This document shows positions 14,658 to 53,496 of a DNA stretch of 64,000 nt, in pieces (the first letter of the stretch is position 1; the number at the start of each line of letters is the position of its first letter). Source of the stretch: Acidimicrobiaceae bacterium (lineage in GTDB: Bacteria; Actinomycetota; Acidimicrobiia; Acidimicrobiales; RAAP-2). The stretch lies in contig PMLJ01000048.1 of NCBI GenBank assembly GCA_003158855.1, positions 101,835-165,834 on the forward strand, given 5' to 3'. Both the position numbers and the translations under genes were made by a program. The notes under the pieces were generated by a model. That model was not told where the DNA came from. It made no database searches and worked only from the letters and a program-made list of their open reading frames with translations.

Positions 14658-15439
14658 GGCTGGTGGACCGAGCACCAGTAGGTGGTTCGCCCACCCACCG
14701 TCGCCGACAACATGCTGCCCCCGTCGAGCGGGCAGTGCCCGCCGGGGAAACGCCCCTCCATGTGCTCGCCGGTGTGGGACCCGCCACGGCGTTGGAGGGT
14801 CCGCATGGTCTGGGTGAACGCCTTGTAGAGGCGATTTCGGTCGTCGGTCGATAACAGCGCCGTCGGCGTCCTCGGATCGATGCCCGCGCGAAAGAGGATC
14901 TCGTCGCCGAGCAGGTTGCCAACGCCCGCCACCACCGACTGGTCGAGGAGGCGCGCCTTGATCGCCGGCCCTTCGCCTCGCGCGATGCGCAGGACGCCCA
15001 CGAACTCCTTGCGGGTGAGCGAGAGCGCGTCGGGCCCCAGCTCGCTGAGGTCCGGGTCGATCTCGCACCTCGCGAGCCGACGCGGATCGTGCAGCACGAG
15101 CTTGCGGCCGTCGTCGAACTCGAGGCCGGCGCGCACCCAGTCGGACTTGTAGGTGTGGGGGCCGTAGAAGAGCCCGTCGATGGCGGCGTCATCGTCGATG
15201 AGGAGCACCCCGGTCATCCCGAAACGCATGCCGAGGGTGACCCCGGTGGTTTCGAGCAGCATCAGCTTGCCGCGCCGCGAGGTCCCGGTCACGGTGAGGC
15301 CCTTGACGGTACGCGCCCACGCCGACGGCGACGTCAGTTTCTTCGCGGCGAAGACGTCCGCCCAGCCCCGCACGACCGTGGCGCCCACCACGCGATCGGC
15401 GAGCATTCGATACGACTCCACTTCGAGGACTTCGGGCAC
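14654..15439 (-). CDS. mutM: Formamidopyrimidine-DNA glycosylase family protein (Fpg/Nei)
   Basis: A 261-residue base-excision repair glycosylase/AP lyase. GTG at 15439 is chosen as start because it places PEVLEVE directly after the initiator, so Pro2 and Glu3 become the catalytic N-terminus. The helix-two-turn-helix region (LLDQSVVAGVGNLLGDEILFRAGIDP written as VVAGVGNLLGDEILFRAGI) is intact. The C-terminal zinc finger is present but atypical in spacing (GGHCPLDGGSM ... TTYWCSVHQ, using Cys and His). The substrate, oxidised purines (Fpg) or pyrimidines (Nei), is not settled by sequence. It diverges from the FrhB-like gene, with 53 bp between starts. Confidence 0.88.
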   Translation of the reverse strand: MPEVLEVESYRMLADRVVGATVVRGWADVFAAKKLTSPSAWARTVKGLTVTGTSRRGKLMLLETTGVTLGMRFGMTGVLLIDDDAAIDGLFYGPHTYKSDWVRAGLEFDDGRKLVLHDPRRLARCEIDPDLSELGPDALSLTRKEFVGVLRIARGEGPAIKARLLDQSVVAGVGNLLGDEILFRAGIDPRTPTALLSTDDRNRLYKAFTQTMRTLQRRGGSHTGEHMEGRFPGGHCPLDGGSMLSATVGGRTTYWCSVHQP

Positions 15440-15492
15440 GGGCGCAGCGTACCCCCAACTCAACTTCGAGACGTCCTTACTAAGGTTGGACC

Positions 15493-16617
15493 ATGGCTTT
15501 AGAGAAACCGCAATGGAAAGAGCTCTTCAGTGAGGTCGTCACGTCCGGACTCTGCACGGGCTGCGCGGCCTGCGTGGTCGCGTGCCCCCACGACGTGCTC
15601 GACTACGAGTCGAACGACGGGATCTACAAGCCCTGGCACCTCGACATCGACGGCGGCCGCGAGGACTGCACCCACGGCGTGAAGGGCTGCACGATGTGCA
15701 CCAGGGCCTGCCCGCGCTTTCGCAACTGGGAAGGCGAGATTGACACGCACCGTTTCGCGCGCGAGCGCACCGACGACGAGGTCTGGGGCATCGGCGACGT
15801 GCTGCTCGCGCGCTCGAGCGACCCCTCGGTCCTCGAGAACGGGCAGGACGGGGGCTTCGTCTCGACGCTGCTGATCTACGCCCTCGAGCACGACGTCATC
15901 GACGCCGCGCTCGTGAGCGGGCTCGAGGGCGACGGCTCGACGTGGCGCGCCACGCCGCGCGTGGCGCGCAACCGCGACGAGGTGCTCGACACCGCGAAGT
16001 CGCGCTACACCTACAGCGCGAACCTGCTCGCCTACCCCGAAGCCGTCGAGGGCGGCGCCGAGCGCATCGCACTCGTCGGCATGGGCTGCATGGCGTCGGC
16101 GACCGGCGCGATGCAAACACGCAAGGCCGGCAAGATCGCGCGCCGACTCAGCCTCACGATCGGGCTGCTCTGCTCCAAGACCTTCGACGACGCGATCTTC
16201 GAGGAGCTCTTCGAGGCGAAGTACAACATCAAGCGCTCCGACATCAAGAAGATGAACATCAAGGGCGTCTTCCAGATCTGGACCCACGACGGCAACTTCC
16301 ACGAGGTCCCGCTGAAGGAGGCCCACGCGTACACCCGCGAGGGCTGCACGCAGTGCCCCGACTTCGCGGCCGAGCACGCCGATATCTCGACGGGGGGCAT
16401 CGGGGCCTTCGGCGACTGGACGCTCGTCATCGTGCGAACAGACCAGGGCCGGGCGCTGATGAGCGCGCTGGTCGAGCACGGCCTCATCGAGACCCGCCCC
16501 GGCGACGACGACCCCGGTGCGGTGGCCCTGCTGCACAAGCTCGCCCAGCTGTCGCGAAAGCGCTGGCCCGCGGACGCGAACCCCGGTCCGCGTCGCATCC
16601 CAGTGAAGATCAACTAG
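15493..16617 (+). CDS. Coenzyme F420 hydrogenase/dehydrogenase beta subunit family protein (FrhB-like)
   Basis: A 374-residue iron-sulfur flavoprotein. A ferredoxin-like cluster site lies at Cys21, 24, 27 and 31 (CTGCAACVVACP), and a second set occurs near 56-73 (CTHGVKGCTMCTRACPRF). The remainder matches the FrhB/FpoF N- and C-domains (DGGFVSTLLIYALEHDVIDAAL, CTQCPDFAAEHADISTGGIG). The family oxidises or reduces F420 or related deazaflavins, or acts as a ferredoxin-linked reductase. ATG at 15493 is preceded by TAAGG. It is 20 nt upstream of the histidine phosphatase gene and may be co-transcribed with it. Confidence 0.87.
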   Translation: MALEKPQWKELFSEVVTSGLCTGCAACVVACPHDVLDYESNDGIYKPWHLDIDGGREDCTHGVKGCTMCTRACPRFRNWEGEIDTHRFARERTDDEVWGIGDVLLARSSDPSVLENGQDGGFVSTLLIYALEHDVIDAALVSGLEGDGSTWRATPRVARNRDEVLDTAKSRYTYSANLLAYPEAVEGGAERIALVGMGCMASATGAMQTRKAGKIARRLSLTIGLLCSKTFDDAIFEELFEAKYNIKRSDIKKMNIKGVFQIWTHDGNFHEVPLKEAHAYTREGCTQCPDFAAEHADISTGGIGAFGDWTLVIVRTDQGRALMSALVEHGLIETRPGDDDPGAVALLHKLAQLSRKRWPADANPGPRRIPVKIN

Positions 16618-39661: not shown

Positions 39662-39665
<4 letters not shown>

Positions 39666-40201
39666 AGGGGCTCTTCGCCCACGAGCGTGGCGAACACCTG
39701 GGCCAGCTCCCAGAGCTCATTCGCGCACGCGACGTACATCGCGTCGTCGCCTCCCGCCGGATCGACGACGTCGAGTGCGGGCTCCAGCGCCAGCGACGCC
39801 ACCACTTCCAACTGAACTCGCAACGGCTCGTCGAGTGGCGCGTACCTCACGAACTGGTGGAGCTGCACCGCTTTTTCTGCGCCCTGGGCGAAGTTGGCGC
39901 GCACGTAGTTGACGTGGTCGGCTTCGCTGGCGAGCACGACGTCGGCCCACGCAACGTCGGCCCCGCTGAGTTGATGGCTGCGGTGCGCGTTGTAGTGGTG
40001 CCCGCCGAGCTCTTCGATGCTGAGCAGCGCGCCGCGCGTTCGCGCGCTCAGGGCCTGTCCCTCGAGGACGAGGGTGCCCGCGGTGCGGACCTTCCAGTCG
40101 GCACCCGTCGCCTCAGCGATCGTCGTCAACATGTAACCGAACATCACCGAGCGCGCAACGTTGCCGGTACAGAGTGTGACGATCTTCAGCGGACGGGCCA
40201 T
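39662..40201 (-). CDS. Low-molecular-weight protein tyrosine phosphatase-like protein
   Basis: A 179-residue LMW-PTP fold protein. The P-loop is Cys11 to Arg17 (LCTGNVARS, C-x5-R), and the distal acidic motif is VDPAGGDDAMY, in the position of the usual DP general acid. LMW-PTPs act on tyrosine kinases of polysaccharide export, and related enzymes act as arsenate reductases. The neighbouring glycan genes favour the former, weakly. Upstream (to the right) begins the island boundary at about 40.29 kb. Confidence 0.85.
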
Positions 40202-40286: not shown

Positions 40287-40365
40287 CTAGTGGATATGCA
40301 CGCCGGAGATCGCGCGCGCGATGATCAAACGCTGGATCTCGCTGGTGCCCTCGAAGATCGTGTAG
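40287..40365 (-). pseudogene. Detached 3' end of acyl-CoA dehydrogenase gene (fragment 1)
   Basis: On the minus strand this encodes [18 protein letters not shown] followed by ISGVHIH and a TAG stop. Apart from the last residue it is the same as the C-terminus of the intact acyl-CoA dehydrogenase at 52282-53496, including the catalytic Glu of the FEGT motif. At DNA level the aligned 69 positions differ from the intact gene at 18 sites, all synonymous. There is no start or upstream coding sequence. It is most simply the original host 3' end, displaced by an insertion. Confidence 0.85.
40297..40365. repeat. 69-bp direct repeat, left copy
   Basis: Identical at every base to 50397-50465 by eye, in the same orientation, and exactly 10,100 bp apart. 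It covers the last codons of an acyl-CoA dehydrogenase gene. Identity ends abruptly after TCGTGTAG on the right and one base before TGCACG on the left (a further AT matches beyond one mismatch). It is interpreted as an attachment site remnant. Confidence 0.85.
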
Positions 40366-40923
40366 GTGTTGGAGGCACATGCATTTTCGCAGGTCAGAGG
40401 CATCATTTTCAGATGATAGCCCCACAAACTGTGGGTCCGCAACGGTCCGACCCCACCAGGGAACCACCTCGCCCCACGTAGTTGGAGCTAGGTGTGCCAG
40501 ATCGCGGAACATCAGCGCGATCTCCGGCATGGCAAGCCCAAACCCCTCGGACCTGCCGCCGACCCGAGTCGACGCCACCTCTGGACCGAGAACGGCGGCA
40601 ACGTTCTTCAAAGAGTCGGACAGATAGGCGCACTTTTGACACCTGAAAACAGGTTCGACCATCGAACGAGTGTGCAGCGAGCGTCCGGTGAACCGATGAA
40701 TGGGGTCCGGCCAAATTACCGGGCGCTAGTTTATCGAAATTGATTCCTCGCCAACCATGATTCCGCGCAACCTTGACATTCGCCTTGGGCGCCATCTCGG
40801 AAGGCGCATTGGTCATCGACTTAGGTTTGGCAGTTTGAGGACGACGGCACGATGCCTATTCTCACTGTCGGAACAGTCGTAGTCACATTGGTTCGACATC
40901 TCATATGGGCCGCACGAGGAACT
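40366..40923. other. Gene-poor island start
   Basis: About 560 bp with no open frame that I can support. Short frames on both strands lack recognisable domains, plausible starts and ribosome binding sites. It looks like decayed or non-coding DNA next to the left attachment-like repeat. Confidence 0.5.
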
Positions 40924-41361
40924 TCAGCCCCGGACAACGAGCACTGAACACTGTGCACTCAACACGCATTCTCTGCTAACCGAGCCGAGAAGCAACTCCT
41001 GTATGCGGCTGAGTCCGCGCGATCCAACCACGAGTAACTCGGCACCGATACTCGCGTGAATCAGCGATTCGGCCGCTGGAGGTTCAACCGTGCGCGCTTC
41101 CACGGTGACTTCGGGGCAACGCAGACGAGCCCGCTCGACTGCGACTTGGATAACCGCGAACTCACTTCTAGCCTCATTCTCCAATAGGGGACTCTCGAGT
41201 ACATCGTGCTCTAACAAGTTCGCATGCACTACTCGCAATTTGGCAGATCGATATCGAGCTTCGTCCGCCGCCCAATCGACGGCGCGTGAGGACGCTTCGG
41301 AGCCATCGACCCCCACAACCACGAATTTCTCCGCCATCACCGCGAGGTCTGGGTTGCCCAT
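40924..41361 (-). CDS. Universal stress protein (UspA family)
   Basis: A 145-residue single-domain Usp. It has FVVVGVDGSEASSRAVDWA at the N-terminus and the ATP-binding pattern GSRGLSRIQELLLGSVS (G-2x-G-9x-G-S) near the C-terminus, followed by SVLVVRG. These proteins bind ATP and act in stress survival. ATG at 41361 gives MGNPDLAVMAEKF; an internal ATG eight codons later (MAEKFVVVG) is closer to the usual family start. It stands alone in the island. Confidence 0.88.
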   Translation of the reverse strand: MGNPDLAVMAEKFVVVGVDGSEASSRAVDWAADEARYRSAKLRVVHANLLEHDVLESPLLENEARSEFAVIQVAVERARLRCPEVTVEARTVEPPAAESLIHASIGAELLVVGSRGLSRIQELLLGSVSRECVLSAQCSVLVVRG

Positions 41362-41979
41362 TTCGCCTCCTAGTCAACTGCTCCTCACTATGTAGCCGAG
41401 AGCGCAGATCAGCCAGAGTCATAAGTCCCATCGATTACGGACGCTGACGCGAGTCAGCACAACATAATTCCGGGGGATGGTGCAGGCACGCGGGCGTCAG
41501 AAGTGGGACATGGTGAACCATGGCGCCTCTCGAGAAGCATTGCTGGGCTGTCCAGATTCTCGCACTCCAGCCTCGTGTCTTTCCACCGCTAAGCGGGTGA
41601 ACTTCCTAGGCGTTGGTATGACTTCTCTTGAGCACCGAGGCGACGACGGAATCGAAGTTCCACATGGGACCGGCTCCCAACTCGTCGCGACCCAACACCA
41701 GATTGGACGCCGGCGCCAGAACTTCGATCGCTCCAAGCATGTGCCCCGTCATTCACCAGTCGAATGGGGCTCCGCATGGCGTCTTCCGCCCCCCGATCGA
41801 GTGCCACTATTTCAACTGTGGACCTCATGACCGATGAGCCGAAGAAGGCCAACCATTTCCGCCGAACAGATCCTTCCTCCACAACTCCACGCTTGTCTAC
41901 GAACTCATAGGATCGGCCCGTCAGCACTTCCCAATTTGATAAGCGACCACTCCCCCTTCCGCCCGAGCTCGTCGACGTG
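41362..41979. other. Stretch without a supportable gene
   Basis: Roughly 620 bp between the Usp gene and the Gmad2 gene. Open frames exist on both strands but have no recognisable domain or convincing codon pattern, and no clear ribosome binding site. Confidence 0.45.
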
Positions 41980-42669
41980 TCACTTAAGGAAGGCAACTCG
42001 AATCACGCTGGCTTCAACCACGTGTCCATCCTTGGCGGAGTAAGTACGGAAGAGGAGCGCCCCACGTCGATACGACGGCGGAGCGAACGATACTGACTTA
42101 CTGAAAGGACCCATCTTCCCCAACGAGCCACCCATTACCGTCTCACTCTTCAACGGGGTGAGAGTCTCATCCTGAAGCACCTCAACATTCACGACAGCTT
42201 CATACGCGGTGCTGCGGCCCTTGAGCAAGACCGGTGATCCAATACTCTCCATCGCTGACGGAGTCGTCACCATGATGTCCGGGCACGATGCGCCGAGGAC
42301 CCACCATGAGTTCGCCGGTGTCAACTGGCGCAGAATTATGGTGGTCACGGGTCCAGTCGGCGTGGCCTTGACGGGAACTTCACCCGAGCGACTGTCGCCC
42401 TGTTGGAAGGATCCCACTAACGGACTGGTGAACCCGAGGTAGTCCGTGGCGAATGCCTCCGCCGCCAGAACTGGATCGCCGAAGCGTGTCACCGTTGAAG
42501 CGAAGGGCCATATAGCCGTTTCGGGTTGTGCGACCGAGCCAAGCGTGGTGGTGGATTGCGCTGACGTCGTTGACGTTGACTCCCGTCCCCATTGGCGCCC
42601 AACTGCAACACCCATTACCCCAACGACAATCAGTGCGCTCACCGCAACGGCGACCACTCGCTTGCTCAC
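41980..42669 (-). CDS. Membrane-anchored protein with Gmad2-like Ig domain
   Basis: A 229-residue protein: N-terminal hydrophobic anchor (VVAVAVSALIVVGVMGVAVG), a Ser/Thr-rich linker (TSTTSAQSTTTLGS), a middle domain, and a C-terminal region resembling Gmad2, the Ig-like domain first described in spore germination proteins (VTTPSAMESIGSPVLLKG ... TAYEAVVNVEVLQ ... GKMGPFSKSVSFAPP). It is predicted to be extracytoplasmic. Start GTG at 42669 puts the anchor at the N-terminus; the frame extends to a TTG at 42711. Role unknown. Confidence 0.65.
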   Translation of the reverse strand: MSKRVVAVAVSALIVVGVMGVAVGRQWGRESTSTTSAQSTTTLGSVAQPETAIWPFASTVTRFGDPVLAAEAFATDYLGFTSPLVGSFQQGDSRSGEVPVKATPTGPVTTIILRQLTPANSWWVLGASCPDIMVTTPSAMESIGSPVLLKGRSTAYEAVVNVEVLQDETLTPLKSETVMGGSLGKMGPFSKSVSFAPPSYRRGALLFRTYSAKDGHVVEASVIRVAFLK

Positions 42670-43005
42670 GCTCTCATCGTTACCAGTTGTCGTTGAAGTG
42701 AACAGGGGCAAACGTCACATGATGCTGAAGCCTGGGGTGCCCGCGCGGCACGTCCCGTGCGGGGAGGTCAAACTGCTTTCAGCGAGGATTGGCGGATTCG
42801 AGGGCCCGACGCGACGGTTCTGCCACCTTGCGCTGGCTGTGAGAAGAATGCCGATGACTGTTACATTCGCTACAGAGCGGCCGAACGCGAGGCCACGTCC
42901 CTCGTCGTAAGCGCGAAATGGAGGCGATTCGGTGACCTACGTCCAAACGATGGATGACGCGCCCGCCCAGGGCATGTCTGGGTACTTCCTGTTTCGCACG
43001 GTGAC

Positions 43006-45408
43006 ATGAAGGACGATCGCGCCCAGAGCCCCTTGACCGATGCTGCTGGCAGCGGCGCCATCGTGCAGACCAAGCCCACGGGCCTGAGTGCCGACGAGGT
43101 CGCAGCGCGGGTCACCATGGGGCAGAACAATGAAGGCGGCGAACGCACGAGCCGAACAGTGGGCGAGATTCTCAGGGCCAACATCTTGACCCGGTTCAAC
43201 CTCCTTCTCGGCACGCTGTTCATCGCGATCGTCGCCGTTGGTCAATTGCAGGATGCACTCTTCGGCATCGTTCTGATCGCCAATGCCCTCATCGGGATCG
43301 TGCAAGAGTTACGGGCGAAACGCACCCTCGATCACCTCGCCGTGCTCAGCGCACCGTGCGCCAGCGTCGTTCGCGACGGCACCGAGCAGAAGGTCTCGAT
43401 CGACGCCGTCGTGCTCGATGATCTGGTCAGCCTGCACGCGGGTGACCAGATCGTGGCCGATGGGATCGTCCGAGTGGCCGCTGGGCTCCAGGTTGACGAA
43501 TCCCTGCTCACCGGTGAGGCCGAGCCGGTCGACAAGAGACTGGGTGAGCAGGTGCTCTCTGGGAGCTTCGTAGTTGCCGGAGCGGGTCGCTACCAGGCGA
43601 CCGCGGTGGGCGCTGACGCCTATGCCCGCAAGCTCGCAACCGACGCACGGCGCTTCACCCCGGCGCGCTCCGAGCTGATCGACGGAATCAACCGCATCCT
43701 GCGGTACGTGACCTGGGCGATTTTCCCGATCGGGGTGATATTGCTCGTCAGTCAGCTGCACGCAAAAGAGAGCGTCACTGACGCCGTCAGCGGTACCGTC
43801 GCCGGACTCGTCGGCATGGTGCCGCAAGGGCTCATCCTCCTGACGAGCATCGCCTTCGCGGTGGCGGCGGTGTCGCTTGCCCGGAGAAACGTGCTGGTCC
43901 AGGAGCTCTCTGCGATCGAGGCGCTCGCTCGCGTCGACGTCGTGTGCTTCGACAAGACCGGGACGCTCACCGACGGGTCCATCGTCTTGGACAGGATCGA
44001 GCTGGTCGGAGACTCGTTGCCCGTCGAGGCTGCTCTCGGGGCGCTGGCGCATGACGAGAACGCCAATGCGACCCTGGGGGCGATCGGGCAGGCCTTCCCG
44101 CCTGCAGATGGCTGGACCCGTGACAGTTCGGTCCCCTTCTCATCGGCGCGCAAGTGGAGTGCAGCGAGCTTCGGCGACTACGGCACCTGGGTTCTCGGTG
44201 CGCCGGAATTGGTGCTACTCGCTGGCGACGAGCCGACGCTCAAGCGGGCCGAAGAGCTTGCTGCGACCGGCCAGCGGGTCCTGGTGCTTGCCCACACCGA
44301 CGCCCGCCTTGAGGGCGATACTTTGCCCCCCGACGTGCACGCAGCCGCGCTCGTGCTCTTCGCCGAGCGGGTCCGCGACGACGCGGCATCGACGCTCGCC
44401 TACTTCGCAAGGCAGGGCGTCGCCACCAAGGTGATCTCAGGTGACAACCCCCTCACCGTCGCGGCAATCGCGACACGGGTGGGTTTGGCGGACGCGGGGC
44501 AGCCCGTGGACGCTCGCGACCTACCCGACGACACCGACGCTCTCGGGAGGATTCTCGAGGAGCGCTCAGTCTTTGGCCGAGTGACGCCCCGTCAGAAGCA
44601 GGCCATGGTCACCGCGCTGCAGGCGAGAGGCCACACCGTGGCCATGGCTGGCGACGGCGTTAATGACGCATTGGCCCTCAAGCTCGCCGATATTGGCATC
44701 GCCATGGGCTCCGGTGCACCTGCCACTAGGGCGGTCGCCCAGATTGTCCTGCTCGATGGGTGCTTTGAAACGATGCCCGAGGTCGTGGCTGCGGGTCGCA
44801 GGGTCACCGCCAACATCGAGCGAGTCGCGAACGTCTTCATCGCTAAAACGGCCTGGGCGACGACGCTGGCCGTGACGGTCAGCGTCCTCCTGTGGCCCTA
44901 CCCTTTTCTGCCTCGCCATCTCACCATCATCGATACCCTGACTATTGGCATTCCCACGTTCTTCCTGGCGCTCGCACCGAACCTGCGCCGCTACACGCCC
45001 GGATTCGTCGACCGGGTCCTTCGCTTTGCAATCCCGACCGGGCTCATCGTGGCTGCCTCGGTGTTCGCCGCTTACGCGCTGGCTCGATCCAAGAACCTCT
45101 CGCTAATAGAGCAGCGCACGGGCGCCACGCTCGTCGCACTCATGCTCAGCCTGACCGTGCTGGTGCTCGTCGCGCTGCCGTTAACCTGGCGTCGAGCACT
45201 GATTGTTGCAGCGGTGGCTGTGGGCTTCGTCCTGTTGTTTCCTATTGCCGCGGTTCGATCGTTCTACGCGCTGCGCCTGCCAACCGAAATTCTCGCAGCC
45301 ACCCTTCTCATCGGCATCGCCGGCATGGCGCTGATGATCACGGTGTGGATAGTCTCGCGACGCCTCGGCGGGGACCCCGACGCTGCTGTCTTGGCGGGTG
45401 GTGGCTGA
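43006..45408 (+). CDS. P-type cation ATPase, CtpE-like
   Basis: An 800-residue P-type ATPase. Order: actuator domain with VDESLLTGEAEPVDK, M4 with VGMVPQGLILLTSIAFAV, phosphorylation site CFDKTGTLTDGS (Asp316), a short nucleotide-binding domain (SSARKWSAASF), hinge MAGDGVNDALALKLADIGIA, then six C-terminal helices. The M4 sequence and lack of an N-terminal metal domain resemble mycobacterial CtpE, a calcium-uptake pump; the ion specificity here is inference. ATG at 43006 is in the island, preceded by gene-poor DNA. Confidence 0.87.
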   Translation: MKDDRAQSPLTDAAGSGAIVQTKPTGLSADEVAARVTMGQNNEGGERTSRTVGEILRANILTRFNLLLGTLFIAIVAVGQLQDALFGIVLIANALIGIVQELRAKRTLDHLAVLSAPCASVVRDGTEQKVSIDAVVLDDLVSLHAGDQIVADGIVRVAAGLQVDESLLTGEAEPVDKRLGEQVLSGSFVVAGAGRYQATAVGADAYARKLATDARRFTPARSELIDGINRILRYVTWAIFPIGVILLVSQLHAKESVTDAVSGTVAGLVGMVPQGLILLTSIAFAVAAVSLARRNVLVQELSAIEALARVDVVCFDKTGTLTDGSIVLDRIELVGDSLPVEAALGALAHDENANATLGAIGQAFPPADGWTRDSSVPFSSARKWSAASFGDYGTWVLGAPELVLLAGDEPTLKRAEELAATGQRVLVLAHTDARLEGDTLPPDVHAAALVLFAERVRDDAASTLAYFARQGVATKVISGDNPLTVAAIATRVGLADAGQPVDARDLPDDTDALGRILEERSVFGRVTPRQKQAMVTALQARGHTVAMAGDGVNDALALKLADIGIAMGSGAPATRAVAQIVLLDGCFETMPEVVAAGRRVTANIERVANVFIAKTAWATTLAVTVSVLLWPYPFLPRHLTIIDTLTIGIPTFFLALAPNLRRYTPGFVDRVLRFAIPTGLIVAASVFAAYALARSKNLSLIEQRTGATLVALMLSLTVLVLVALPLTWRRALIVAAVAVGFVLLFPIAAVRSFYALRLPTEILAATLLIGIAGMALMITVWIVSRRLGGDPDAAVLAGGG

Positions 45409-45881
45409 CCTCGCGACGGGGCTTCGTGACTGGAGGTCCCACTTAGGTCCAGATCTGATGGTTTGCCCTAACACCGAGTGTGTGCCAAGCGTCCGACCGC
45501 AGAGCACAGAGTCAACCAATCAGTTCGAACCACCGGACTCGTCGATCCGTCGATCGCTGGACGAAGGTGTCAGCCGAACCCTCGCCGCTAATCGGATGAA
45601 GGAACCGAAGTTTGCATGATTCGTCTGCATAAGCCCTCGGTTGGTTTTGAGGGTGCGCTCCCGATATCGCAGCTCTCGCAAACTGCGGGTGAGGAAAGGT
45701 GCTCGAGAAGAGCAGCGATTAGGCGGGTGTTGCTGACTCGGAACTCTTGTGGCATCGGAGGCCCGAAATCATTGTTCTGCTACCGGACAATGGCGCTTCG
45801 AACGCTGGATTGGGCCCAGTGTCTGAGATTTGATCTCTTTCCCCAATCGTGATTCATTACGCATTGTTGTACAACGAGTCT
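45409..45881. other. Non-coding island stretch
   Basis: About 470 bp after the CtpE-like gene. Two short frames are open but show no domain and no good start region. Composition is clearly more AT-rich than the flanking ATPase genes. Confidence 0.4.
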
Positions 45882-46058
45882 ATGTTTGACTTTCGGTCGA
45901 CTCTCGGCGTAGTTCGAACACTGACGGTCACGTCAGTGGTTTCTGCGTCTACCCTTCTCCTTGTTGCCGTCAGTCCTCCAGCCGCACATGCTACAAACGT
46001 CATCGTTCCGTCTTGTGATGGTTCGAGCCTAGGAAGTGCGTTCGTCAGCCACCAGTAG
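45882..46058 (+). pseudogene. 5' fragment of a secreted-protein gene
   Basis: A 58-residue frame from ATG at 45882 that is almost entirely a signal peptide: a short basic start (MFDFRSTLGVVRTL), a hydrophobic core (VVSASTLLLVAVS) and an AHA-type cleavage site (PPAAHATN), followed by only about 19 residues before a stop. It looks like the beginning of an exported protein, possibly a choice-of-anchor or repeat protein, truncated by decay. It could instead be a very small secreted peptide. The next 250 bp carry no supportable gene. Confidence 0.4.
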
Positions 46059-46307
46059 AGATGGGGCATATGGTCACCACCATCGCCATATCGAATATCC
46101 GAACCACGACCAGCGCACTTGGTGGTTACCCAGACCTTGTCGGTCTTCGCGGGAAAAGGAAAGCAAATTGCAGGTCACAGGTCACGGTACCTACGGCTGA
46201 AATCTTCGCCGCACGACCCTCGCGCGCGATCGACGCTTCACCACACTGGCAATACGAAATGACTTTGGACCCCACCCTTCGCATCTTGCACGCACGAAAA
46301 TAAAGGC

Positions 46308-48644
46308 ATGTCCCCTCTCACGTCGAAAGCGGCGACACACGCGGGCGCGCGCCTCCTACCCTTCGTGACCCTGGCGCTGGCGACTATTTGCCTGATCGTG
46401 GGCGCGGTCCTACACATCGCGTCACAATCCGGGCCGGGCGATGTTGCCTGGATGGTGTCAGCCGCCGTCGGCATCGCCTTCTCACTCGTGTCCACCGCGC
46501 GTAGCCTTCGTCGCGGCCAACTGGGCGTGGACATCATCGCCCTGCTCGCGCTGTCGGGCGCGCTATCGGTGCGTGAGTTCCTCGCCGCAGCCGTGGTCAG
46601 TGTCATGCTCTCCAGTGGCGGGGCCATCGAGATGTGGGCGGCGGGCCAAGCTCGACGTGACCTGCAGGCCCTACTCAAGCGAGCTCCTCACTTCGCTCAT
46701 CTGCACCGCGCTGATCAACTAGTGACCCTCGATTTGGCTGAGGTGATGCCCGGCGACCTGCTCATGGTCGCCACCGGAGAACTGGTGCCGGTGGACGGGA
46801 TGATCTCGTCGGGATCGGCGACTCTGGACGAGTCGGCCCTCACCGGCGAGTCACTGCCTATCGAGAGATTGCGTGGCGAGAACGTGCGAAGCGGCACGCT
46901 CAACGCCGGCGCGCCCTTCGACATGCGCGCGACCACCACCAGTGCCGACAGCACCTATTCGGGCATCGTGCGCCTGGTGAGCGAGGCCGAGTCGTCCCAG
47001 CCGCCTTTCGTCCGACTGGCCGATCGCTACGCTCTCGGCTTCCTCGCGCTGACCTTGGTGGGAGCCACGCTGGCGTGGATGCTTGGGGGAGCGGATCGCG
47101 CGGTCGCCCTGCTCGTGGTGGCCACACCGTGCCCCCTCATACTCGCGGCGCCCGCGGCATTCGTTTCAGGTCTCTCGCGCGCCGCACGACGGGGCATCGT
47201 GGTCAAGGGCGGCGCGGTTCTCGAACGCCTTGCCCAATGCACCACCGTGCTGATGGACAAGACCGGCACCTTGACCCAGGGCAGGCCGCGGATGGTGGAC
47301 ATCGTGACCGCGGGAGCCCTCGGTCCTGACGAGATCCTCAATGCGGCCGCGTCGCTGGACCAAGTGTCACCCCACGTGCTCGCGAGCGCAATTGTCCAGG
47401 CGGCTCTGGAGAAGAGGTTGGCCCTCGTCGTTCCTCGCGACGTGAGCGAGGTGCTCGGAGAAGGGATTTCCGGCACGGTGGCGGGCCGTCGGGTCTCAGT
47501 CGGGCACGCCCCGTGGACCGGCGTCCGCGGTACGCCGGCGTGGGCCAAGTCCACGCTGCGGCGCGCCCGCCTGGACGGCTCGCTCACCGTCTTAGTCTCC
47601 CTGGACGACGAGCCCGCCGGCGTCCTCGTTTTCGAGGATCCTCTGAGGCTCGAAGCGCCGCGAACCATACGCGCCCTGCGCCGCGACGGCGTGTCACGAA
47701 TTGTCATGGTCTCGGGAGATCGAGTCGAGGTCGCCGAGACCGTAGGAGCAGTCATCGGCGTGGACGACGTTCTAGCCGAGCGCACCCCGGCCGAGAAGCT
47801 CGACATCGTTCGCATCGAGTCGGCGTGCGCACCGACCATCATGATCGGCGACGGCATCAACGACGCACCCGCACTCGCCCTGGCCGACGTCGGCGTCGCG
47901 ATGGGCACCAGAGGCTCGACGGCAGCGACCGAAGCGGCGGACGTCGTGCTGACGATCGACACGATCGATCGCCTGGGCGAAGCGATCTCGCTCGCCAAGC
48001 GCACGGTGCGCATCGCGCGCCAGAGCGTCATTGCGGGTATGGCGATGTCGCTGGTGGCCATGACCGCTGCGGCGGCCGGGCTGCTGCCAGCAGTCGACGG
48101 TGCAGTGCTCCAGGAGATGATCGACGTAGCGGCGATCCTAAACGCGCTGAGAGCACTGCGCGACACACCGAATCGCGTCCGCCTGAGCGACGAGGATGCC
48201 GCGCTCACGAAGAGGTTCTGGGAGGAGCACGTCTCGATACGCGCAGACATCGCGGAGCTGCGCGAGGTAGCCGACCAGCTGAGCTCAATGGACGCCCGAT
48301 CGGCCCTCGCCGCGGTAGCTCACGAGTATGAAGTGCTTATCACCGAGGTCGTGCCCCACGAGCAGGCTGAAGAGCGCGAACTCTATCCGGAGCTGGGTCG
48401 AATCACGGGCCAGCGGAGCCTCGCCGCCGCGATGAGCCGGGCCCACGTTGAGATCAAGCACCAGGTCCGCAGGCTCGGCCAATTGCTCGAAGACATCGAA
48501 CCTGATGGGGTCGATGACGCGGATATTACCGAGCTTCGCGGCATACTGTACGGTCTCCACGCAATCTTGAAGCTGCATACTGCCCAGGAGGATGAGGACT
48601 TCCTCTCGCTTGTCGACGGCGTGACCGCCTCCCAGAGCCGCTAG
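46308..48644 (+). CDS. P1B-5-type metal ATPase with C-terminal hemerythrin domain
   Basis: A 778-residue heavy-metal ATPase. The transmembrane metal motif is TPCP (273-276, ATPCPLILAAP), the phosphorylation site DKTGTLTQGRP starts at Asp317, the actuator has DESALTGESLPIE, and the hinge is GDGINDAPALALADVG. There is no N-terminal metal-binding domain. After the last helices a hemerythrin-like helical bundle (about 640-775) follows, with His/Glu ligands in RFWEEHVSIRADI, VVPHEQAEERELYP, MSRAHVEIKHQV and LHTAQEDEDFL. TPC motif plus hemerythrin defines subgroup P1B-5, whose studied members are linked to Ni and Fe export. Confidence 0.9.
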   Translation: MSPLTSKAATHAGARLLPFVTLALATICLIVGAVLHIASQSGPGDVAWMVSAAVGIAFSLVSTARSLRRGQLGVDIIALLALSGALSVREFLAAAVVSVMLSSGGAIEMWAAGQARRDLQALLKRAPHFAHLHRADQLVTLDLAEVMPGDLLMVATGELVPVDGMISSGSATLDESALTGESLPIERLRGENVRSGTLNAGAPFDMRATTTSADSTYSGIVRLVSEAESSQPPFVRLADRYALGFLALTLVGATLAWMLGGADRAVALLVVATPCPLILAAPAAFVSGLSRAARRGIVVKGGAVLERLAQCTTVLMDKTGTLTQGRPRMVDIVTAGALGPDEILNAAASLDQVSPHVLASAIVQAALEKRLALVVPRDVSEVLGEGISGTVAGRRVSVGHAPWTGVRGTPAWAKSTLRRARLDGSLTVLVSLDDEPAGVLVFEDPLRLEAPRTIRALRRDGVSRIVMVSGDRVEVAETVGAVIGVDDVLAERTPAEKLDIVRIESACAPTIMIGDGINDAPALALADVGVAMGTRGSTAATEAADVVLTIDTIDRLGEAISLAKRTVRIARQSVIAGMAMSLVAMTAAAAGLLPAVDGAVLQEMIDVAAILNALRALRDTPNRVRLSDEDAALTKRFWEEHVSIRADIAELREVADQLSSMDARSALAAVAHEYEVLITEVVPHEQAEERELYPELGRITGQRSLAAAMSRAHVEIKHQVRRLGQLLEDIEPDGVDDADITELRGILYGLHAILKLHTAQEDEDFLSLVDGVTASQSR

Positions 48645-48840
48645 GTCACGATGGTCTAATTCTCGCCGCCGCGCCACAGGTCGAGGATTCCGCGCAAGAG
48701 CTGCGTAGACGCGACGACGATCTCCTCGTTGAATCTCAAGGAGGGCAAGCTCCTCGACCCTCATTACTCAGAAGAGACTGGACGGGACGCCGTCACCGAC
48801 GAGACCCGTCGCATCACGACGCTTCGAACGACGCCCCAAA
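48645..48840. other. Short island gap
   Basis: No complete gene. On the minus strand a frame ending near 48658 reads EEIVVASTQLLRGILDLW, which looks protein-like but is cut off, and may be debris of a lost gene. Confidence 0.25.
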
Positions 48841-49209
48841 GTGAGATCAATGAAATGGAGCGAAAGCATTAAGCGATCGAACGGACCGTCGAGAGGTTCG
48901 ATCACGTTGCGCCACTGCTCACCGAACGGATCTCGAGTCCCTCTGGGACGAGCCGAGCGTCGATTCCTCGTCGAGGATCTGGTCGATTCGGTTCGTTTCT
49001 ACCCCGACCGATTGACCGTTCAGGTAGCAAGTGCACTACCATTTCTGGTCACCCTTGAAGAGGTCGGCTTGCCCGCTGGTAGCGAACCTTTGGTGTCGGA
49101 GGCCCGACGTGACAGTACTCGACGGGCCTTCGGGTTCCACAACGTGAACGCCCTCATCGCACTGGCTCGACTCACGCTCAGTGGTCAACGTCCAAAACTA
49201 CCCACTTGA
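48841..49209 (+). pseudogene. Possible C-terminal remnant of a large serine recombinase
   Basis: A 122-residue frame without a convincing start or ribosome binding site. The segment RRFLVEDLVDSVRFYPDRL followed by TVQVASALPFLVTLEEVGL resembles the C-terminal end of actinobacterial serine recombinases, where an L-V-x-x-V-V-YPDR-hydrophobic pattern and a final EVGL are common. No catalytic N-terminal domain precedes it. If correct it is the decayed tail of the island's integrase. The match is from memory of the family and not tested. Confidence 0.35.
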
Positions 49210-49411
49210 ATAGCAGGAGAGCCCAGAAATACAACCTCGCAACGACAGCTAAACCACTAAGGCGTCCGGATCTCACGATTTGGGGCACCATCCAATTCAC
49301 AACCAGATGAGTTCGCAAGTCGCGGCTTTTCGGCGTGATCGAATTTGTGACCTTCGCCCCTTCGTTTTGGTGGGTGTTCCACCGTACTTTGCTTAAAGAG
49401 ACCCTTCATCG

Positions 49412-50143
49412 ATGGGAGTGTTCAGCGTGAGTGATTCTCCTTATACGGATTTGACGGATAACGGGCAACTTCGATATCCCTCCCGGTCGGTACACCGTGA
49501 TTCGAATACGATCTTTCGATTTGGCCTGACCGTGCGCCTGTTGCATTGGTGGATCGTCGCAACTTTTGCCACGGCCCTACTGACGGGACTCGCCATGGGA
49601 TCAGAAATGGAAAACGGCAATCTGTTTCACATGCATGTGGCTGCGGTGATCGCGATGGGTAGCGGTTTCGTGGTCGCGCTGATCTTCGGCAACACAATGG
49701 CGGTATTCCGATTCGTGCGAGACGCATTCCTTCCGGAACGAAGTGACTTTGAATTCGTGGCTCGAATCGTTTCTCGACCATTTCACCGAACTGGAATCAG
49801 GTGGGGAAAGTTCAATCTTGGGCAGAAAGGGCTTGCTTGGATGATGTTGGCATCACTTACGGCAATCATCATTACCGGCATCAACTCTTGGCATACGGAT
49901 GGAGACGCTGCGGGTCCGCACACGACCGCCGTGATCATCGCACTGATCCTGCTGGGTGTGCACGTCTTCATGGCCGTGGTGAATCCGGTTACACGTCCGG
50001 CGCTGCCTGGAATGGTCTTCGGAAGAGTGAAGCGGTCATGGGCGCTCCACCACCACGCAAAATGGGTTGAAGATCAAGATCGTCGCTCTGCTCGATCGGC
50101 TGTTCAATCTCAGTCACGAACGTCAGAGCACGATCATGACTAG
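49412..50143 (+). CDS. Cytochrome b561-type membrane protein
   Basis: A 243-residue protein with four predicted helices of the cytochrome b561/formate dehydrogenase gamma type. Candidate haem ligands are His in VRLLHWWIVATF, HMHVAAVIAMG and LILLGVHVFMAVVNP. Helices run from about 40 to 60, 70 to 95, 140 to 160 and 170 to 195, followed by a polar His/Arg tail. It probably carries b haems and passes electrons between quinone and a partner; no partner dehydrogenase is adjacent. ATG at 49412 gives MGVFSVSDSP; ribosome binding site weak. Confidence 0.78.
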   Translation: MGVFSVSDSPYTDLTDNGQLRYPSRSVHRDSNTIFRFGLTVRLLHWWIVATFATALLTGLAMGSEMENGNLFHMHVAAVIAMGSGFVVALIFGNTMAVFRFVRDAFLPERSDFEFVARIVSRPFHRTGIRWGKFNLGQKGLAWMMLASLTAIIITGINSWHTDGDAAGPHTTAVIIALILLGVHVFMAVVNPVTRPALPGMVFGRVKRSWALHHHAKWVEDQDRRSARSAVQSQSRTSEHDHD

Positions 50144-50386
50144 GCAACGGCCAAAGAGTGCATGATTCGAGCCGCGAGAGTATTTCGTTCACACATTCGT
50201 TGATCCAATGGACAATTCGGTGGCCCGACGTCAACCCGCACGCGGATCGTGGCGATTCGTGCTAGGAGGCAATCGACCAAGGCGTGCAAATTGCTACGGC
50301 CTGCCGCGCTTGGTGCTACGCCCCTAATCCGATCGTGTTTGGGGCAATCGATGGGTCTACTCGCCGAGAATCCATCGCTCTATTCT

Positions 50387-50465
50387 TCAACGAATGTGCA
50401 CGCCGGAGATCGCGCGCGCGATGATCAAACGCTGGATCTCGCTGGTGCCCTCGAAGATCGTGTAG
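50387..50465 (-). pseudogene. Detached 3' end of acyl-CoA dehydrogenase gene (fragment 2)
   Basis: The minus strand encodes [18 protein letters not shown] followed by ISGVHIR and a TGA stop. The protein sequence equals the C-terminus of the intact gene at 52282-53496; DNA is identical to fragment 1 over 69 bp and differs from the intact gene at 18 synonymous sites. The codon just before the stop (Arg) and the stop itself differ from fragment 1. No upstream coding part is present. Confidence 0.85.
50397..50465. repeat. 69-bp direct repeat, internal copy
   Basis: Identical to 40297-40365 in the same orientation. The corresponding stretch at 52292-52360, inside the intact acyl-CoA dehydrogenase gene, is a diverged third copy. 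The three copies divide the island into two segments. Confidence 0.85.
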
Positions 50466-50621
50466 TTCCTATAGGTGCGACCAGAAGTACTGGTCGCGAC
50501 ACCTTTCGAAGAGAGATGGACCCACAAATAAATGGGAAGACCAGTTTTAGACCCGATTTGGTCCGATCCCGGTCCCCGTTAATGGCTCTCGCGCGAGCGC
50601 CATTGCGAGTCGCGGTCTGCA

Positions 50622-51047
50622 TCACTTCGGAGTGACGATTTCCCACGCTAGAAGTTCGCCATCGAGAACAGCCGGCAAGACTCCGTTCGCTGCCTCTGGT
50701 GACAGCCAGATCGTGGCGGCCAGAGCGCGGGCCGCAGCCACCGCCTCAAGGTTGAGTAGGTTCAACTTAGGGTGGCGCCCGGCAATCTCAACCATGAGCG
50801 GTACGAGTTGTCGTGTGTCAGGAAGGCCAATGTCATTCGGTAATTGAAGCATTGCGCTAATCGCGCGCTCCTGATCTTGTGGTTCCAATTCCCGGAATGG
50901 TCCAGAAAGATGCCCGCCGGCGCCAAGTACAGCGGCCCGACATGCGCGGTAGTACCAGTAGGCAGTGGTGTGCAGTTGCACTCCCGGTCTACGACTGCCA
51001 ACGAGAAGCTCCTCGATCAAGAGGCGGTCGTCGAGGACGACGTTCAC
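50622..51047 (-). CDS. Putative toxin of a toxin-antitoxin pair (PIN-like)
   Basis: A 141-residue protein that starts NVVLDDRLLIEELLVG, with an early Asp in the place of the first PIN-domain acidic residue, and ends LDGELLAWEIVTPK. Domain assignment is uncertain; the case for a toxin rests mainly on the directly upstream AbrB-type antitoxin, the 1-nt overlap of start GTG with the antitoxin stop, and the typical size. If PIN-like, it would be a VapC-type ribonuclease. Confidence 0.5.
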   Translation of the reverse strand: MNVVLDDRLLIEELLVGSRRPGVQLHTTAYWYYRACRAAVLGAGGHLSGPFRELEPQDQERAISAMLQLPNDIGLPDTRQLVPLMVEIAGRHPKLNLLNLEAVAAARALAATIWLSPEAANGVLPAVLDGELLAWEIVTPK

Positions 51048-51289
51048 TACTGATCGGCGAGGTCGGGGTCGCCGATTGCTGCTAACCCAGCGTTGTAGCG
51101 CGCGGTGAGGACGCTTTTCAGTTCAGCCTTGGCTCGAGCCATTCCTCCGGGCAGTACCAATGCTGCGTCGCCGAGGTCAACGAAGGCGATCTCGCCACCG
51201 TCCTCGATACCCCAACGATGCCTTAGTTCTGCCGGAAGACTGGTTTGACCACGCTGAGACACACGGGCTTGACTGACAGGAGTTGACAT
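51047..51289 (-). CDS. AbrB/MazE-type antitoxin
   Basis: An 80-residue protein with an N-terminal swapped-hairpin AbrB domain: VSQRGQTSLPAELRHRWGIE and GGEIAFVDLGDAALVLPGG. The C-terminal part (RAKAELKSVLTARYNAGL) is helical and probably wraps the toxin. It is the upstream gene of the pair and ends 1 nt inside the toxin gene. Autoregulation is expected, but I saw no obvious operator between it and the MarR gene. Confidence 0.75.
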   Translation of the reverse strand: MSTPVSQARVSQRGQTSLPAELRHRWGIEDGGEIAFVDLGDAALVLPGGMARAKAELKSVLTARYNAGLAAIGDPDLADQ

Positions 51290-51420
51290 GAATGCATTGT
51301 ACCGTGCTCATCTCTACAAAGCGACGTTTTCGGGGCATCTTTGGGAAATGATGGACAGCATGTTGTCGAGCACCGGGTGGCGGCAGTTTTACCCACTGAC
51401 GTGATGACACTCCTGATCGT

Positions 51421-51879
51421 CTAGGTCACGTCGCCGGGTCTCCGCTGTTCACGAGAAGAGACAGCACTCATTGACTGTTGAAGTTTCCACAAGAGTTCTG
51501 TCAGGCGCCGAACATCCTCCGACTCCCAATCGCGGACAAAAAGCGAAAATCGCTTCAGGCCAAAACTCTCCAACCGACGATGTTCGACAGTTCCGTTGTC
51601 CGTCAACGTGACCAAATTCGATCGTCCATCCGTTGGGTCAGCCTTGACCTCTACGTAACCAGCAATTTCAAGTTCTCGAATTTGTCTGGTGACGAGTGAG
51701 GGATGAACTCCCTGAAGACCGGCAATATCGGAGGGCCGCGCTCCGTCATGATTAGCGATGGTTTGCAACAGACTTAATGTGGCGGCTCCCTTCCGCTGAC
51801 GTCTCGCTCGTTCGAGACCGGCATTCATCGTGAACAGAGCTGCAACCATCAACTTCACGTCGCGCTTATTCGGGGGCAC
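51421..51879 (-). CDS. MarR family transcriptional regulator
   Basis: A 152-residue winged-helix regulator. The recognition helix region is GARPSDIAGLQGVHPSLVTR followed by QIRELEIAGYVEVKADPTDG and RSNLVTLTDNG (the wing). Start GTG at 51879. It is divergent from a small membrane protein gene, with two perfect palindromes in the 82-bp gap, so it most likely represses both genes. The ligand is unknown. Confidence 0.88.
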   Translation of the reverse strand: MPPNKRDVKLMVAALFTMNAGLERARRQRKGAATLSLLQTIANHDGARPSDIAGLQGVHPSLVTRQIRELEIAGYVEVKADPTDGRSNLVTLTDNGTVEHRRLESFGLKRFSLFVRDWESEDVRRLTELLWKLQQSMSAVSSREQRRPGDVT

Positions 51880-51894
51880 GCCAAACCATACCAG

Positions 51895-51915
51895 TTAGTT
51901 GACAAAGTCAACTAA
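51895..51915. promoter_or_regulatory. MarR operator palindrome 1
   Basis: Perfect inverted repeat with half-sites TTAGTTGAC and GTCAACTAA and a 3-nt spacer (AAA). It lies 15 bp upstream of the marR start. It shares the core GTTGAC-N3-GTCAAC with the second site, centre-to-centre 37 bp away. Confidence 0.75.
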
Positions 51916-51930
51916 ACACATTACGGTATT

Positions 51931-51953
51931 AATCGTTGACTAAGTCAACGATT
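51931..51953. promoter_or_regulatory. MarR operator palindrome 2
   Basis: Perfect inverted repeat with half-sites AATCGTTGAC and GTCAACGATT around a 3-nt spacer (TAA). It ends 8 bp before the ATG of the small membrane protein gene, so bound protein would block initiation or elongation. Core identical to palindrome 1. Confidence 0.75.
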
Positions 51954-51961
51954 ATCAGGAG

Positions 51962-52153
51962 ATGCACGTGAGCAAATATTTTGGATTTTTACTAAACCGT
52001 AACTTGTTGTTCGCTTTCGGCGTCTTACCGCCCGCCATATACACATTCAACGGACACGCGTGGCTGGGGCTCCTTTTCATTGCATGCGTTGTGGCCGGTC
52101 GCTTTTCTGTCGGTCCGATTATTGGTCGGAAGTTCGAAGATTCACGCTCCTGA
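51962..52153 (+). CDS. Small hydrophobic membrane protein under MarR control
   Basis: A 63-residue protein, ATG at 51962, with two predicted hydrophobic segments (FLLNRNLLFAFGVLPPAIY and AWLGLLFIACVVAGRF) and a short charged tail. TCAGGAG sits about 3-5 nt upstream. I do not recognise the family. Its position right behind two palindromes and divergent from marR suggests it is the regulator's main target, perhaps a small efflux or membrane-stress protein. Confidence 0.6.
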   Translation: MHVSKYFGFLLNRNLLFAFGVLPPAIYTFNGHAWLGLLFIACVVAGRFSVGPIIGRKFEDSRS

Positions 52154-52281
52154 AGAACGAGGCCGTTACGGCCGGCCGACTTGTTCGCGGATGCCAATTA
52201 ACCGGTTTGCGCGTCGGTCGCAACCGGCGGTCCTTGATCGTGTCCGCGGCAAACGGAAAGTACCCGAGTCGCTTCTCAGGA

Positions 52282-53496
52282 CTATCTGATGTGCACGCCC
52301 GAAATGGCCCTTGCAATGATCAGGCGCTGTATTTCCGAAGTCCCTTCGAAAATCGTGTAGATCTTCGAGTCACGGTGCCAGCGCTCGACCGGGTAGTCGC
52401 GCACGTAGCCGTAGCCGCCCAGGATTTGGATCGCTTCCTCGGTGACCTTGACGGCAGTCTCTCCCGCGTAGAGCTTGGACATCGAGCCCTCGCCGTTGAG
52501 GAAGGGCTTGCGCGTGGCGGCCATCCACGACGCGCGCCATACCAGGAGACGCGCAGCGTCTATGTGCATCTTCATGTCGGCGAGCTTGAAGGCGATCGCC
52601 TGGTTCTCGATAATGGCCCGGCCGAACTGCTTGCGCTCTTTGGCGTACTCGAGCGAGTACTCGTACGCGGCGCGCGCGGTGCCGAGCGCCTGGGCGCCCA
52701 CGGCGGGCCGGGTCGATTCGAAGGTCGCCATCGCGGCCTGGCTCGAGGCCCTCTTCCCCTCGCGCACCCTCGCGAGCTGCTCGTCGAGCTTGTCCTTGCC
52801 GCCGAGCAGGCAGCTCCCCGGCACACGGCAGTCCTCGAGGACGACCTCGGCGGTGTGCGAGGCCCGGATGCCCATCTTCTGGAACTTCTGGCCCATGCGA
52901 ATGCCCTTGGTGCCTTCGGGCACGACGAAGGAGGCCTGGCCCCGGCTGCCGAGCTCGGGATCGACCGACGCCACGATAACGTGCACGTTGGCGATTCCGC
53001 CGTTGGTGATCCAAGTCTTGGTGCCGTTGAGGACCCATTCGTCGGTGGCGGCGTCGTAGACGGCGCGGGTACGCAGCGACGACACGTCGCTTCCGGCGTC
53101 GGGCTCGGTGACACCGAACGCGGCGATCTTGATGTCGTCGGGGGTCCCGAAGCACTGGGGGATCCACTCCATCTGCTGCTCGGGGGTGCCGTTGGCCATG
53201 ATGGCGGCGACGCCGAGCGTCGTTCCCATGAGGGCCATGCAGATCCCCGCGTCGCCCCACGCAAGCTCCTCGAGGGCGATCATCATGGAGAGCCCGGTGG
53301 GGTCGGCGACGGCGTTGGCCATGAAGTCGAGGCTGTAGATCCCGATCTTCGCGGCCTCTTCAATGATTGGCCACGGCGTCTCTTCGCGTTCGTCCCATTC
53401 GTGGGCGGCCGGCCGGATGACATTCTCGGAGAAACCGTGGACCCAGTCCTGCAACGTCGTTTGGTCCTCGTTCAGTTCCATTGAAAAATCGGTCAT
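52282..53496 (-). CDS. Acyl-CoA dehydrogenase
   Basis: A 404-residue flavoprotein of the acyl-CoA dehydrogenase family. Motifs: ACAD N-domain [19 protein letters not shown], substrate/FAD region [12 protein letters not shown], and the catalytic base Glu384 in [11 protein letters not shown]. Electrons would go to the EtfAB at 20-21.8 kb. The last 23 codons (52292-52360) use codons unlike the rest of the gene and correspond, synonymously, to the detached fragments at 40.29 and 50.39 kb; this tail is likely supplied by the integrated element. ATG at 53496. Confidence 0.95.

Follow-up and report, generated by a model that had tools for sequence, protein, structure and literature searches.

Two tandem elements lacking an integrase in the acyl-CoA dehydrogenase gene 3' end of an Acidimicrobiaceae bacterium, likely inserted with the help of a tyrosine integrase supplied from elsewhere

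Repeated gene ends at the acyl-CoA dehydrogenase locus

We analyzed a 64,000-nucleotide stretch of contig PMLJ01000048.1 (positions 101,835 to 165,834 of assembly GCA_003158855.1, from an Acidimicrobiaceae bacterium; hereafter the window), in which an initial annotation had identified an island inserted into an acyl-CoA dehydrogenase (ACAD) gene at its 3' end. The intact gene (52282..53496, minus strand) encodes 404 aa matching Pfam Acyl-CoA_dh_1, _M and _N, and its last ~24 codons (72 bp, termed the tail) were found three times, as that annotation had claimed, all on the minus strand: within the gene (52289-52360) and as detached copies at 50.4 kb (50394-50465) and 40.3 kb (40294-40365). The detached copies were identical at 71 of 72 positions, whereas the in-gene copy was 74% identical to the 40.3-kb copy. 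The further claim that all copies encode the same residues held for the 50.4-kb and in-gene copies (25 residues) and failed for the last residue of the 40.3-kb copy, which is H rather than R. A peptide search of the genome revealed no fourth copy, and a DNA search recovered just the two detached ones. The length and identity of the three tails exclude chance. All three start at the same heptamer, CTACACG (the core; 52354-52360, 50459-50465 and 40359-40365), and ACAD sequence was absent upstream of both detached tails; thus the copies did not arise by duplication together with flanking gene sequence. The core falls in the stretch coding for the SKIYTIFE motif and is flanked by inverted arms (TCGAAGAT / ATCTTCGA). 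Across 50 in-gene sites, the arms matched at no fewer than five of eight positions, and in 23 of these sites they matched at all eight.

Read along the minus strand, the locus comprises the gene body, a core, the recoded tail, a 1.9-kb element, a core, the second tail, a 10.1-kb element, a core, the original tail and a phosphatase gene (39662..40201, minus strand; identified from open reading frames and relatives). The two detached tails therefore differ in kind: the 50.4-kb copy opens the 10.1-kb element, and the 40.3-kb copy is the displaced host tail, which retains a stop codon (40287..40365). When the gene body was joined in a script to the 40.3-kb copy, an open frame of 404 aa resulted that stops 85 bp before the phosphatase gene, in agreement with the earlier proposal that the gene once ended beside it. 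From core to core, the 1.9-kb element spans 1,895 bp (50460..52354, minus strand) and the 10.1-kb element 10,100 bp (40360..50459, minus strand), with GC contents of 0.55 and 0.61, respectively, versus 0.66-0.67 in the flanks. Direct repeats with a restored gene at one end and a displaced gene fragment at the other are the organization expected of an integrative element at the 3' end of a protein-coding gene.

Empty and occupied sites in related genomes

The ACAD gene was detected (E ≤ 1e-100) in 81 of the 100 relatives sampled, and the region downstream of it was fetched for 40 (G and L codes denote the genomes and loci compared, the genome of the window being G000). The site was empty in 10 of the 40, with the phosphatase gene directly after the ACAD gene in seven and, where that gene was missing, a TetR gene in its place in three. 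In 11 relatives the site was occupied, the contig with the gene also bearing a detached tail, and in the remaining 19 the two states could not be told apart, either because the contig ended too soon or because other genes followed with no recognizable detached tail. Several relatives' contigs (L020, L023, L026 and L144) stop inside or just before the ACAD tail, which is what repeats at the site would cause in assemblies.

An intermediate state was found in G005, which carries the 1.9-kb element alone, followed by a displaced tail directly before the phosphatase gene. The element matched that of the window at 1892 of 1896 positions and the in-gene tail at 72 of 72, while the ACAD gene bodies agreed at only 973 of 1136. 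The same element recurs in G015 (1888/1896), where it lies in an array directly behind an integrase-bearing element. G029 resembles the window in the gene body (1102/1136) and the displaced tail (69/72) and departs from it in the in-gene tail (55/72). On these comparisons, the displaced tail follows the host and the in-gene tail follows the element.

The 10.1-kb element has homologues in G008 (92% identity) and G029 (94%) over 8.5 kb, and the tail of the G008 copy matched that of the window at 59 of 72 positions and the in-gene tail of G029 at 68 of 72. The suggestion that this element came from a close relative thus found no support. Given the mismatch of the G008 tail, the near identity of the two detached tails in the window may stem from later gene conversion. 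The order of insertion proposed earlier, the 10.1-kb element first and the 1.9-kb element second, is plausible.

Arrays and element ends across the genus

The initial annotation had called for a search for other elements with the same 3' end. The island is real and its initial interpretation largely correct; it proved to be one case of a genus-wide system. The tail peptide was matched in 66 of 80 genus genomes, and 37 detached tails were counted in 24 genus genomes on the fetched contigs. The printed comparison comprised 39 in 25 genomes, from which G002:C105 and G028:C18 were excluded as lying at a contig start, where they are indistinguishable from gene ends; four others with tails shorter than 75 bases were omitted, three as probably mis-flagged gene ends (G022:C117, G104:C1, G115:C11) and one for a negative position (G035:C256). 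A residue unseen in other in-gene tails occurred in 2 of 50 in-gene and 22 of 37 detached tails, some of the latter being copies of one event. Twenty tail-to-tail stretches of 1.56 to 16.2 kb were delimited, 17 of them distinct by size and sequence since an element of 1.9 kb and another of 1.6 kb are each present more than once; in G111, an additional stretch of 28.2 kb covers two adjoining ones. The 16.2-kb element, from G029, holds a serine recombinase.

The ends of these elements are conserved beyond the coding repeat. For the analysis of elements and heptamers we used 37 right ends, 34 of them distinct, and 32 align ahead of the core (alignment A1), including those of the 1.9-kb (50466..50605, minus strand) and 10.1-kb (40366..40505, minus strand) elements; the two left out, G028:C2 and G113:C21, differ upstream from the rest. 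GTGGGTC-like heptamers averaged 2.95 per 158 bp in right ends, versus 1.25 in left ends and 0.54 in element interiors, a distribution that would suit lambda-like arm sites.

Gene content of the elements

The 1.9-kb element encodes a MarR-family regulator (Pfam; 51421..51879), a MazE-like antitoxin (weak match, 1.5e-05; 51047..51289) and, directly behind the latter, a 141-aa protein with no family match (50622..51047), all on the minus strand; that the 141-aa protein is the toxin partner of the MazE-like protein is a guess. On the plus strand, the 10.1-kb element encodes a cytochrome b561-like protein (Pfam; 49412..50143), a remnant resembling the C-terminus of a large serine recombinase (LSR; 43% over 45 aa; 48955..49092), a heavy-metal P-type ATPase with a hemerythrin domain (46308..48644) and a second P-type ATPase (43006..45408), both ATPases assigned by family searches; on the minus strand it encodes a Gmad2-domain protein (Pfam; 41980..42711) and a universal stress protein (Pfam; 40924..41361). 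An integrase was recognized in neither element. With both attL and attR kept and neither integrase nor transfer genes found (the latter judged from Pfam matches of nine island proteins), the elements have the form of cis-mobilizable elements (CIMEs), and the LSR remnant of the 10.1-kb element was the only possible trace of an origin by deletion from an integrative and conjugative or integrative and mobilizable element.

Cargo of other array elements included an ATPase matching PADLOC PDC-S27 (4.2e-16; L043:10047-11540) and a gene pair weakly like AbiEi/AbiEii (L045:1420-3268).

A candidate helper integrase

Among the open reading frames of the G008 array, 455 bp from a core, we found a 463-aa protein that we regard as the candidate integrase. 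Its match to PF00589 lay below the cut-off (19.6 vs 27.1 bits) and it had no NCBIfam match, but it matched a PHROG integrase (1.7e-10), and most of its full-length homologues carry PF00589. Tyrosine recombinases share a catalytic set of R, H-x-x-R, H and Y, and the corresponding R274, H398, R401, H430 and Y440 were invariant in 17 homologues. An AlphaFold model of moderate quality (pLDDT 70.9, pTM 0.47) gave 24 PDB matches (E ≤ 0.001), all to tyrosine recombinases, with low TM-scores of 0.19-0.28 of the query.

Homology and profile searches located this integrase in the same six genus genomes: complete in G008 and G015, cut by a contig end in G112, a 63-residue remnant in G009, and as homologues of 42% in G115 and 32% (partial) in G049. 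A profile search of 395 genomes of the class, scoring the best four candidates per genome, added G139 and G193 from other families (aligned parts 28% and 33% identical). An ACAD tail adjoins the integrase in seven of these eight occurrences (G008, G015, G112, G115, G049, G139 and G193). In G115 and G049 the neighboring tail belongs to another ACAD paralogue, and G049 presents a whole element, comprising the intact end of that paralogue, the integrase and a displaced paralogue tail.

A PF00589 search of 16 genomes gave no match on island contigs, in that the integrase is too divergent for that profile. The 463-aa integrase was absent from the viral contigs, phages and plasmids searched, and the 1.9-kb element from the plasmids. 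A 385-aa tyrosine integrase on G000:C41, common in genomes with arrays, was rejected as the agent since the tRNAs found near its relatives were tRNA-Ala, -Val or -Lys. The eight integrases of G000 were taken as the longest open reading frame at each match, and the frame of L010 may be wrong. Members of a tyrosine integrase family of ~380-440 aa (L146-L158) likewise lie beside tRNA-Ala, -Val and -Lys genes.

Insertion by a helper integrase and alternative explanations

The arrangement in the window is likely the result of two integrase-less elements having been inserted in tandem, one after the other, into the ACAD 3' end, with a helper element supplying the tyrosine integrase. Such an enzyme would recombine at the core CTACACG, and a crossover there would leave the tail of the element at the gene and the tail of the host at the far end. 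The shared core and the similarity of the right ends suggest that the 463-aa integrase or a variant of it could act on both elements of the window, either in trans or in cis from a neighbor since departed. Selection for a working enzyme would keep the carried tails coding.

Several observations weigh against mobilization by such a helper, which we infer. The integrase is rare (6 of 99 genus genomes), four of the six carriers are close relatives and two of those have incomplete copies; it was not found in G000 by homology or profile search, nor in any complete tail-to-tail element of the genus, and the G009 remnant had no tail in the 19 kb fetched. Right ends of integrase-bearing elements were only 52-54% similar to that of the 1.9-kb element and 40-45% to that of the 10.1-kb element, compared with 25% in a shuffle control that, lacking realignment, is a low estimate of chance; with similarity this low, another integrase could serve the elements of the window. 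The contigs compared are pieces of metagenome-assembled genomes, and neither recombination nor a circular form was observed.

Possible, if rather doubtful, is the CIME route, in which each element is a decayed remnant of one that brought its own integrase to this site and now moves only in cis, once a functional neighbor has integrated beside it and excises the pair. Arrays of att-flanked units with no integrase would fit this route, as would the composite-like placement of the 1.9-kb element of G015 directly beside an integrase-bearing one, and CIMEs of 1.2-13 kb are documented at gene 3' ends, that of fda among them (PMC7563491). The complete elements, however, contain no remnant of the 463-aa integrase, and the 1.9-kb element occurs alone in G005 and with different neighbors in G000 and G015. 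These varied surroundings are more easily explained by independent movement, yet a helper that was lost later could give the same picture.

It is very unlikely that the elements were moved by an LSR, of which G029 has a gene just behind its ACAD tail (L091) and the 10.1-kb element a C-terminal remnant. In L094, L095, L097 and L107, relatives of this recombinase adjoin the tRNA-Leu (gag) 3' end, with a fragment in L100; no ACAD tail was seen beside the other LSR loci examined, and nearly all other elements have no LSR. We rejected the LSR as the agent, as its family uses tRNA-Leu and no att site of its own was found at the ACAD tail. Some of the tRNA-Leu (gag) LSR flanks hold further tRNA-end-like fragments, as if collecting elements too.

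Still less probable is copying of the tails by homologous recombination or gene conversion with no site-specific integration. Some conversion is likely, considering that the two detached tails agree at 71 of 72 positions though the tail differs in homologues of the 10.1-kb element, but every copy begins at the same core, the right ends are conserved past the coding repeat, and in several lineages the tail is accompanied by an integrase gene. Least probable are cassettes of the integron kind that recombine at folded attC-type sites: small cargo units are indeed arrayed with no local recombinase, but RNAalifold found no common structure in the 32 right ends, the site is coding sequence, and the associated enzyme is of the phage integrase type.

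Other integrases at acyl-CoA dehydrogenase tails

G010 has an element of ~5.5 kb, with an integrase of its own, inserted into a second ACAD paralogue at its 3' end (L177: 11182, 15300-16499, 16636). Its tyrosine integrase, a different one, immediately follows the intact paralogue, and a displaced tail of the paralogue lies 5.5 kb beyond. A degenerate tail pattern also matched 16 predicted viral contigs (L187-L202). The tail was detached in 13, the upstream region was gene-like in two and too short in one, and a tyrosine integrase was encoded 87-201 bp from it in 14 of the 16. These integrases resemble one another (53% or more, among the pairs listed) and hardly resemble the 463-aa integrase (best E 0.019); several of the tail peptides are identical to a Streptomyces ACAD end. 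In sequenced phages, the search for detached tails gave ten records, nine with the match in annotated acyl-CoA dehydrogenase genes and one lacking annotation.

Because both the 463-aa integrase and those of the viral contigs adjoin ACAD tails, the 3' ends of ACAD genes seem to be used recurrently for attachment in Actinomycetota. A broader proposition, which we advance tentatively and rate at somewhat less than an even chance, is that the codons of the active-site end of the enzyme (ITQIYEGTNQIQR) have been adopted repeatedly as a general attachment site in this phylum, and that tyrosine integrases of unrelated lineages target them in more than one paralogue of ACAD. Within Acidimicrobiaceae the site would have become a dock for cassettes on the chromosome: a rare helper integrase would act in trans to exchange small elements that lack an integrase, carry toxin-antitoxin-like, defence-like and metal-pump genes, and each bring a recoded gene end of their own.

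Relation to known systems and implications

The frame into which the locus falls, integrative elements that restore the end of a protein gene together with CIME-like accretion, is known. In Streptococcus salivarius, CIMEs and tandem accretion occur at the 3' ends of fda, rpsI and rpmG (PMC7563491; reviewed in PMC5704250). Like the elements described here, these are att-flanked, integrase-less, a few kb in size and arranged in tandem at a protein gene 3' end. Unlike them, the present elements target an ACAD gene and show no recognized trace of conjugation genes or of the 463-aa integrase; units lacking that integrase predominate, and few genomes of the genus contain the candidate helper. Elements may reconstitute the protein gene that they enter (PMC12884075), and those cases share with ours a replacement 3' end in other codons and differ in the ACAD target and the many-element arrays found here. 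Phages and elements that integrate in icd are a familiar example of such reconstitution.

ACAD genes have been reported as targets before. The Mycobacterium abscessus prophage prophiT49-3 enters one at about position 280 of 1140 bp, which probably inactivates the gene (PMC9934374), and a phiC31 pseudo-attB lies in an ACAD gene of S. rimosus, which is disrupted (PMC7890619); both involve serine integrases and internal sites with no restored 3' end. Actinomycete integrative and conjugative elements share tyrosine integrases and gene 3' ends with the present case, but nearly all of their targets are tRNA genes (PMC3218068); the exception, the pSLS family, may overlap with it. A restored ACAD 3' end was found neither in the top-ranked papers of the open-access literature searched nor in the available text of PMC12884075, PMC3218068, PMC10083194, PMC12924846, PMC7466150 and PMC6240043. 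As far as these searches go, the ACAD target, its repeated use and the arrays dominated by integrase-less units are new.

A detached ACAD tail offers a searchable mark of element ends on fragmented contigs, even where no integrase is present, and the 463-aa protein points to a candidate family of integrases whose attB is coding and highly conserved. With these, whether integrase-less elements move in trans or in cis becomes directly testable. If correct, the interpretation given here would add a class of attachment site that hosts retain as the code for a conserved enzyme motif.

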